Source: Fibrobacter sp. (lineage in GTDB: Bacteria; Fibrobacterota; Fibrobacteria; Fibrobacterales; Fibrobacteraceae). Taken from it: DNA of 64,000 nt. The DNA is taken from contig JAFPWY010000015.1 in the NCBI GenBank assembly GCA_017412605.1, positions 62,001 through 126,000 of the forward strand, read 5' to 3'. The notes below the pieces were generated by a model. It was not told the DNA's origin. It did no database searches and saw nothing but the letters and a program-made list of their open reading frames with translations. Positions 45,758-47,783 of the stretch are shown here, one piece after another. How positions within the stretch are numbered: the first letter of the stretch is position 1; the number at the start of each line of letters is the position of its first letter. The position numbers and the translations under genes were made by a program.

Positions 45758-45798
45758 AGAAAAAAAAAAGGGGGAAGGAGGTCCTAACTCCTTCCCCC
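45758..45798 (-). terminator. Strong terminator of hsp20
   Basis: Perfect 11-bp stem GGGGGAAGGAG / CTCCTTCCCCC with a seven-base loop; on the minus strand it is followed by about ten T. The rest of the 45592-45757 gap shows nothing else clear. Confidence 0.85.
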
Positions 45799-45840
45799 CG
45801 GATGGGGTGCAGTATGATGTTATATGAGGAGCAGTATTGC

Positions 45841-46221: not shown

Positions 46222-46290
46222 AGGAATACCTCCGTGTTTTTCGGGTCCCCGGCGTTCGCCGTGTGGCCCATTTGTTTTCGCTAGGGTATA

Positions 46291-46306
46291 TGCAAACGCC
46301 GTGCCA
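46291..46306 (-). promoter_or_regulatory. Sigma-54 promoter of hsp20
   Basis: On the minus strand TGGCACGGCGTTTGCA: the -24 GG and -12 GC are exactly ten bases apart, matching TGGCACG-N4-TTGCA in full. Transcription would start near 46280, about 60 bases before the hsp20 ATG. Confidence 0.65.
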
Positions 46307-46428
46307 AAGTGGGCCTTTGCAGGCGTTTTGGCGGAAAAAAGCCCAAAATTTTTTCAAAAATGTCGAAATTGGCTCAAAAAAGGCATTTTCGATGCTCCCG
46401 GATTTCCTGCGCATCTTGACCTATTTCA

Positions 46429-46455
46429 TAAAAAAACGGCGGTGTTGCACCGCCG
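46429..46455 (-). terminator. Terminator of the TolC-like gene
   Basis: CGGCGGTG-TTG-CACCGCCG stem followed by TTTTTTT on the minus strand. Confidence 0.8.
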
Positions 46456-46490
46456 AAACAGGGTTGTTTTTCAAAATGAATTGCGCGGGG

Positions 46491-47783
46491 CTAGTCCAGC
46501 TTTCCCTGGTACAGTTCCAGCATCTTCCTGGCGAGCAGGCTCGTGTACTTGGCGTTGGTCTGTGTAATCTGCGCTTTCTCGAGGTTGTTCTTTTGCGTGA
46601 GGTAGTCGGTGTAGGTGAGGGCGCCTGCGTTCCGCTGTTCTTCGGCGACCTGCAGGGCTTCGGCTTCGGCCTGCACCTGGAGCGTGGCGGCTTTCCACTG
46701 CATGTCGGCGCTGACGGCGTTGATGTGGAGTTTTTCTACGTTGTTCTCAATGTTCTTGGCGGTTTCCTGCATGCTGATTTGCGTCTCGGCCTCGGTGACC
46801 TGGGCCTGCAGCACCTTGTTGGTGGTCGCTCCGCCGTCGATGATGGGAATGTTGATGCCGAGCGATATGGAGTTCTGCCATCCGTTCTTGAGCTGGCGGC
46901 CGTAGCGGTCGGATTCCCAGGCCTGGAGGCCCGTGCTGGAGTTCGCCCCGAGGGTCACGGTAATGGAGCTTGCCTTGCCGGCGACCTGGGTGCTTTTCTT
47001 AGCGGCCTTGACGGACACGCTGTCGGACTTGAGACCTGGATGCGATTCCTTGGCCGTCTTTCTGAGATCGTCGAGTGTCGGCAACGGGGGAAGCGAGTCG
47101 GGACTGTCGATGTTGCTCTCGGGGGCCGAGATTTCGAATTCCTCGCTGTCGCCCAGCTCGAGTAGCTGCCGGAGCGCCGTCTTCGCGCTGTTGACGGAAA
47201 GCTGTGCCGAAAGCTGAGCCACCTGCTTCTGCAGTACGTTGGACTGGCTCTGGGTGAGTTCCTTCTTGGTGATGGAGCCCGCTTCGTAGAGCTTGCCGTA
47301 ATGTTCGAATTCCGCCTGGGACAGTTCGACGGATGCGTTTGCCGTGCGCAGGTTCTCCATGGCGGCAAGCAGCGACATGTAGGCGTTCAAGACGCTTTCC
47401 TGTACGGAACGTTCGGTCTGCTTGGTCGAAAGGGCTGTGGCCTCTTTAGAAAGCTGGCTTGCCTCGACGTTCAGGCTGGTGGCCCCGCCATCCCAGATGG
47501 TGTACGAACCGGAAATGCCGAGGTTCAGGCGGTAGTGGTCTCCGTCGTCAACGAACGGGTGGTCGTAGAGGGTGTTCTGGATGCTGGCGCTTACGGTCGG
47601 GTGGTTGCCCGTCTTGGCCTGCTTTACGCTGATGTCCGCCTTCTGTTCGCGGAGCTTGGCCGTTTCCAGCGAGAGGCTCTTTTCCTTGGCCTGCTTGAGG
47701 CAGTCCGCAAGCGTCCATGTGCCGCCGAAGGCGGCTGTTGCCGGGACCAGGAACCCAAGAAGAATCGCTATTTTCGTATTCAT
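46491..47783 (-). CDS. TolC-family outer-membrane factor
   Basis: 430 residues. Signal peptide (~1-21), then the duplicated helical/barrel layout of TolC: TWTLADCLKQAKEKSLSLE near the start, LNLGISGSYTIWDGGATSLN, then in the second half SISLGINIPIIDGGATTNKVLQAQ (the paired GG turn strands) and a final NAGALTYTDYLTQKNNLEKAQ. It would form the outer-membrane duct of an efflux or type I secretion system. No membrane-fusion or inner-membrane pump gene is adjacent, so the partner is unknown. Confidence 0.88.
   Translation of the reverse strand: MNTKIAILLGFLVPATAAFGGTWTLADCLKQAKEKSLSLETAKLREQKADISVKQAKTGNHPTVSASIQNTLYDHPFVDDGDHYRLNLGISGSYTIWDGGATSLNVEASQLSKEATALSTKQTERSVQESVLNAYMSLLAAMENLRTANASVELSQAEFEHYGKLYEAGSITKKELTQSQSNVLQKQVAQLSAQLSVNSAKTALRQLLELGDSEEFEISAPESNIDSPDSLPPLPTLDDLRKTAKESHPGLKSDSVSVKAAKKSTQVAGKASSITVTLGANSSTGLQAWESDRYGRQLKNGWQNSISLGINIPIIDGGATTNKVLQAQVTEAETQISMQETAKNIENNVEKLHINAVSADMQWKAATLQVQAEAEALQVAEEQRNAGALTYTDYLTQKNNLEKAQITQTNAKYTSLLARKMLELYQGKLD

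Follow-up and report, generated by a model that had tools for sequence, protein, structure and literature searches.

In Flavobacterium psychrophilum, mapped sigma-54 (SM4) transcription starts lie before groES-groEL, dnaK, grpE-dnaJ, clpB, htpG and lon (PMC9723704). The Fibrobacter sites reported here are likewise -24/-12 sites on the same chaperone gene set, found by sequence alone; Flavobacterium differs in that it belongs to another phylum, its set also includes htpG and lon, and hsp20 is absent from the part of the table covered. In the part of the same paper covered, F. psychrophilum has three PF00158 activators, none of which is assigned, and no enhancer is named (PMC9723704). For Bacteroidota and Planctomycetota, a statistical prediction places GroEL, GroES, GrpE, DnaJ, DnaK and the small heat-shock family in a sigma-54 cluster (PMC12316311): these are the same genes as in the Fibrobacter set, and the main text of that source nowhere uses the word 'fibrobacter'.

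Other links between sigma-54 and chaperones are known. The Escherichia coli small heat-shock gene ibpB is reported to be sigma-54-transcribed (PMC4370416), and there sigma-54 stands beside the sigma-32 control of ibpAB, whereas Fibrobacter hsp20 has no sigma-70-like promoter that we could find at the locus. The hrcA-grpE-dnaK operon of Chlamydia trachomatis has a sigma-54 promoter in tandem with a sigma-66 promoter, under CIRCE/HrcA (PMC8762339, PMC7482065); both organisms thus have sigma-54 promoters on chaperone genes, but HrcA is present in Chlamydia and was not found in Fibrobacter. In the part covered of a nitrogen-starvation study in Xylella, chaperone genes are tied to sigma-32 (PMC3224663). 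The terms 'heat shock' and 'sigma factor' are absent from the main text of the F. succinogenes genome paper (PMC3079729).

Among titles and abstracts on Fibrobacter with sigma-54 or HrcA (supplementary files were outside the search), no such regulon is described, and with the same scope the enhancer, the CIRCE alternation and the candidate activator presented below were not found in print. In Bradyrhizobium, one groESL copy is under NifA-sigma-54 control, tied to nitrogen fixation; chaperonins are under sigma-54 and an enhancer-binding protein there and, as we propose, in Fibrobacter, but in Bradyrhizobium this holds for one copy only. The proposed Fibrobacterota regulon therefore belongs to a known but little-known kind, because the Flavobacterium starts are published and the Bacteroidota/Planctomycetota cluster is predicted.

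A probable sigma-54-type promoter in front of hsp20

In the window (the whole 64-kb stretch of Fibrobacter DNA that was analysed), the sequence TGCAAACGCCGTGCCA at 46291-46306 of the plus strand reads TGGCACGGCGTTTGCA on the minus strand, with GG and GC ten bases apart. A distance of 69 nt separates its end from the ATG of a 126-aa ORF (46221-45841, minus strand) for a small heat-shock protein (Table 1). A sequence-only reading of this DNA had described the site as TGGCACG-N4-TTGCA on the hsp20 strand, with the same spacing of GG and GC and about 70 bases before the start, and the description is confirmed. The exact promoter pattern matches once in the whole window, at this site. Its score of 14.7 is the maximum of the scale: among 1,750 shuffled upstream regions of 250 nt the top score is 13.7, and one of 510 window tiles, the hsp20 tile, scores 14 or more. 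At up to two mismatches the motif has five matches in the window, compared to 6.7 expected from shuffling; the loose motif alone is no evidence, because its matches are at chance level, and we place the evidential weight on the match being exact, on where it lies and on its being conserved. A promoter search of the locus gave no sigma-70-type promoter ahead of hsp20.

Table 1. Features of the hsp20 locus (window positions)
Feature	Position	Strand	Basis
Terminator after hsp20	45769..45799	-	predicted
hsp20, small heat-shock protein, 126 aa	45841..46221	-	ORF list; PF00011 E 2.9e-16
Shine-Dalgarno GGAGG of hsp20, outside main leader hairpin	46229..46233	-	sequence and fold
Leader hairpin of hsp20 transcript	46243..46269	-	predicted fold, weak here (z -1.03)
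Predicted transcription start of hsp20	46279..46281	-	inferred, 11-12 nt past -12 GC
Probable sigma-54-type promoter of hsp20, -24 GG / -12 GC (TGGCACGGCGTTTGCA)	46291..46306	-	exact match, top score vs shuffles, 54/54 relatives
Putative promoter-side enhancer half-site pair (GTTTTTTTATGAAAT)	46423..46437	-	2 mismatches to GTTTC-N5-GAAAC; centre ~124 nt upstream of promoter
Terminator of upstream efflux gene, overlaps central enhancer box	46437..46455	-	predicted
Putative central enhancer box (TGTTTCGGCGGTGCAACA)	46443..46460	-	1 mismatch to GTTTC-N6-GAAAC; centre ~145 nt upstream of promoter
Putative distal enhancer half-site pair (TTCATTTTGAA)	46470..46480	-	3 mismatches to GTTTC-N5-GAAAC; centre ~169 nt upstream of promoter
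Upstream TolC-like outer membrane efflux gene, outside regulon	46491..47783	-	PF02321 E 2.9e-47

The hsp20 gene was matched in 55 of the 61 genomes of the genus, and 54 upstream regions could be read (the locus of G026 starts at a contig edge). All 54 have the sigma-54 site, 66-85 nt ahead of the start and with GG and GC intact. Related genomes do not count as independent cases: the distinct promoter stretches number 46 for hsp20 (27 for groES, 14 for dnaK and 25 for clpB, see below). The bases at -12 are TTTGC in 31 sites, TTCGC in 15, TTAGC in seven and TATGC in one. For three of the 54 upstream regions the initial scan ranked this site second, with a more distant site higher. The sequence directly upstream of the site diverges fast, even among close relatives, and a second inverted repeat over the promoter (AAACGCC...GGCGTTT), considered as an operator, was dropped, as it is absent in the close relative L003. 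The closest Hsp20 relative is 99% identical and comes from a Fibrobacter metagenome assembly from yak omasum. Three hsp20 loci from further away (L234-L236; Bacteroidota, cyanobacterial and archaeal, with guessed start codons) have no sigma-54 site.

The window's genome (3.53 Mb) has one rpoN match (PF04552, E 2.9e-49) and seven PF00158 activators with E below 1e-50. The sequence-only reading had named rpoN, enhancer-binding proteins and the recurrence of the promoter in relatives among the things to check, with a genome lacking rpoN as grounds for refutation; all three were found, so that this ground falls away. Its proposal of sigma-54 control of hsp20 is thus supported, except that hsp20 is not alone but has one promoter of a chaperone set; the likeness that it drew to the phage-shock response extends to the class of mechanism and to nothing beyond. 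Judged by these comparisons, that reading seems to have been right, and under-stated.

Sigma-54 sites on other chaperone genes

The pattern TGGCAYRNNNNTTGCW has 18 matches in the genome, compared to three for the reversed control pattern. Five of the 18 precede chaperone genes: hsp20, dnaK, grpE, groES and clpB. The other genes that follow such matches resemble P-II, glutamate synthase, glutamine synthetase, secA, dapF, lptC and SpoVG (several of these resemblances are below model cut-offs, in some cases since the stretch is partial), and at least one (L081) falls within a coding region, apparently by chance. We searched for groES, dnaK and clpB in 29 chosen genomes of the 61. A near-consensus -24/-12 site was found before groES in 29 out of 29 readable upstream regions, before dnaK in 24 out of 24 (24 of the 29 genomes gave a near match with upstream sequence) and before clpB in 28 out of 28 (one locus had no upstream region and two loci were the same place), and GG and GC are kept in all of them. 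The site before grpE was seen in the window's genome only.

Some individual sites are recorded here. Divergent sigma-54-like sites lie between a glutamate synthase gene and a glutamine synthetase gene (L075/L076, G000:C9:52303-52709). Another sigma-54-like site (L077, G000:C9:149006-149021, minus strand) precedes a 141-aa ORF that is TIR-like by eye and has no NCBIfam match. A third (L080, G000:C11:373124-373139, minus strand) is 9 nt upstream of the first start codon in a gene of the sigma-70 family, whose product has RpoS and RpoD as best NCBIfam matches, below cut-off, and is also below the RpoH cut-off; the site is possibly a link between two sigma systems, or a chance match. A start-region motif, approximately GCGAAAAC or GCGTAAAA and counted with a loose pattern, is found 8-15 nt past many sigma-54 sites (window 46269-46281 and the groES, dnaK and clpB leaders).

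Enhancer-like boxes upstream of the promoters

An inverted repeat, GTTTC-N5-GAAAC, was found with at most one mismatch upstream of dnaK in 23 out of 23 regions (0.30 expected from shuffles; one of the 24 regions was too short for this test) and upstream of groES in 28 out of 29 (0.65 expected). At hsp20 the half sites are six bases apart (GTTTC-N6-GAAAC), in 54 out of 54 upstream regions with 1.3 expected. The clpB upstream regions have no box with either spacing (0/29 rows, including one duplicate). In 52 of the 54 hsp20 regions an extra pair of half sites is found 22 bp nearer to the promoter than the central box (at most two mismatches of eight). The central box is flanked by a pair on either side in 38 out of 54, compared to 104 out of 1,080 for centres placed at random. 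Searched across the whole genome, the N5 box shows no enrichment (16 matches, 20 for the control), so we call no further targets by it, and there is no exact-pattern box at activator genes in the 17 loci scanned. We infer that the boxes are a putative enhancer, bound by the activator of these promoters.

Outside the genus, groES upstream regions hold the box in 14 of 17 genomes of other genera of the family, in both f2 regions, in three out of seven for f8 and in five out of eight for the CIRCE-bearing f3 (eight of nine f3 loci were tested, one being too short); in those of f5, f7, f9, f10 and f11 it was found in none of six. The five f3 cases (L271, L273, L275, L276 and L278) have GTTTC-N5-GAAAC upstream of CIRCE promoters, with no sigma-54 site. 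In these lineages, which also hold an activator of the clade described below, the boxes may be a relic, have a different use or belong to another regulator.

These f3 boxes bear on the reading that GTTTC-N5/6-GAAAC binds a separate repressor or a sigma-70-type activator, unrelated to sigma-54. Because five of eight CIRCE-bearing upstream regions hold a box and no sigma-54 site, the box may serve another regulator; clpB, conversely, has sigma-54 sites and no boxes, and a terminator hairpin shares sequence with the central hsp20 box. However, the boxes of hsp20, groES and dnaK lie mostly 29-177 nt upstream of the sigma-54 sites, which is the usual enhancer range, the f3 genomes have the candidate activator as well, and the box is missing from the six upstream regions of the other CIRCE lineages and f10. 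On balance we regard a separate regulator as unlikely, and the enhancer reading is kept in what follows.

A candidate activator

We built a tree of 59 activator proteins from the window's genome and ten further genomes. Matches to PF00158 with E above 1e-20, for the most part other AAA proteins but also a 68-aa fragment in G077, were left out. One clade (support 100/100), that of the protein L033 (G000:C3:220869), is the only one-per-genome clade represented in all 11 genomes. G066, a genome with a sigma-54 groES and an estimated completeness of 94%, contains no more than two strong activators, of which one belongs to the clade. The recognition region GISR[AST]TLWRK is kept in 11 out of 11 members. 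The phospho-acceptor position of the receiver, on the other hand, is D in three out of 11, and the rest have E, S, N or A there or lack the domain (L319), which makes phosphorylation unlikely as the general switch of the clade. The receiver-family match of L033 itself is below cut-off. L033 sits 3' of a gene whose product combines a PAS domain and a histidine-kinase-type ATPase, and because of this gene a kinase input is possible in the window's species. The assignment of L033 to the boxes is made by elimination, because its clade is also present in the CIRCE lineages f3 and f7: it is the likeliest activator among those found, and we hold the chances of its being the right one to be evenly balanced.

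Two other activators are worth recording. L037 (G000:C10:152455-152955) has a GAF domain and reads GALVGV at the GAFTGA loop, where its relative L302 (G085) reads GAFTGA; it may no longer be able to open sigma-54 promoters. L038 adjoins another glutamine synthetase gene.

Sigma-54 sites and CIRCE alternate within the phylum

HrcA was found in none of the 61 genomes of the genus (seven of 14 control genomes were positive), and no CIRCE nearer than six of 18 mismatches was found in the chaperone upstream regions of the genus. Outside the genus we matched groES in 67 out of 71 genomes and read the upstream regions of 40 (f6 and f12 were left out): these have a sigma-54 site or CIRCE, never both. 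The sigma-54 site without CIRCE is found in the other genera of the family (17 out of 17 genomes) and in family f2 (two out of two). Six f8 groES loci of five genomes have sigma-54-like sites, two of which are weak (L287 and L288, with scores of 12.3 and 13.0 that are reached by 2.6% and 0.7% of shuffles), and L281 keeps half of a CIRCE-like stretch; the f8 sample comprises these six loci and two copies in G066, of which one has a site (14.2) and the other lacks both the sigma-54 site and CIRCE. Fourteen genomes of f3, f5, f7, f9 and f11 have CIRCE within two mismatches before groES and sigma-54 scores of at most 12.7, and one f10 genome has neither. It appears that the sigma-54 module stands in the Fibrobacter lineage at the place that HrcA/CIRCE has in sister families.

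Leader structure

Distinct leaders that fold better than mononucleotide shuffles (z < -1) are 44 out of 45 for hsp20, 25 out of 27 for groES, nine out of 16 for dnaK and two out of 19 for clpB. The structured hsp20 and groES leaders differ in sequence (e.g. window 46222-46281 for hsp20; groES often has hairpins of the GGTCCAA...TTGGACC kind). An Rfam scan of the hsp20 leader gave two weak and implausible matches (E up to 1), with no ROSE element and no thermometer. Leader hairpins as a shared heat sensor were rejected and we claim no thermometer, because the clpB leaders are unstructured and those of dnaK partly so, and the Shine-Dalgarno sequence of hsp20 is not covered by the main hairpin. 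The structure may perhaps play a role in transcript stability.

A model for the regulon, and what else could explain the sites

It is very probable that the hsp20 site works as a sigma-54 promoter and belongs to a chaperone regulon, which comprises hsp20, groES(L), dnaK and clpB in Fibrobacter, and grpE in the window's genome. Sigma-54 RNA polymerase would be held closed at the -24/-12 element, while an AAA+ enhancer-binding protein would sit on the GTTTC-N5/6-GAAAC boxes upstream (up to three at hsp20, about 22 bp apart) and, upon protein-folding failure, open the promoter by ATP hydrolysis. The firing of these promoters, heat or misfolding as their signal and the route by which it would be sensed are all predictions from the genomes compared here. 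The receiver of the L033 clade is degenerate or missing, so the signal is probably not phosphorylation in general.

The promoters might instead serve nitrogen, growth-phase or surface signals through an Ntr-type or other activator, and not heat. The same strict pattern does lie before the genes resembling P-II, glutamate synthase and a glutamine synthetase, and in the part of the Flavobacterium study covered, the sigma-54 group went up on blood agar, and somewhat under osmotic pressure, in plasma and in freshwater (PMC9723704). But the boxes are common to hsp20, groES and dnaK, and the L088 stretch, with L038 and the glutamine synthetase gene, has no exact-pattern box; as an argument only, folding stress would have to exert some control over a chaperone regulon that lacks HrcA. 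We consider such non-heat signals quite improbable as the explanation. That the hsp20 match is mere chance, an ordinary sigma-70 or sigma-32 promoter driving the gene, would agree with the chance-level count of the loose motif, but is extremely improbable given a site kept in all 54 upstream regions (46 distinct stretches) despite the divergence just upstream of it, the same site ahead of groES, dnaK and clpB, and the negative search for a sigma-70-like promoter.

Taken to the phylum, the model of folding-stress control by sigma-54 would read as follows: in Fibrobacterales-type families and a second Fibrobacterota family, neither HrcA nor a heat-shock sigma factor would run the chaperone response; this role would fall to sigma-54, together with a dedicated pseudo-receiver activator that acts on GTTTC-N5/6-GAAAC independently of phosphorylation, and this module and HrcA/CIRCE would have replaced each other within the phylum. 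We advance this wider reading tentatively, as somewhat short of probable.

For Fibrobacter, a rumen fibre degrader, the sites suggest a route of chaperone control without HrcA. Sigma-54 with its enhancer is a switch more familiar from nitrogen genes, and chaperones are governed in many other bacteria by a heat-shock sigma factor or a repressor. Together with the Bacteroidota data, the Fibrobacter sites hint at a wide occurrence of sigma-54-controlled chaperones outside the model phyla. Given an enhancer of defined sequence and a single candidate activator, the sensing of misfolding upstream of sigma-54 would become directly testable.
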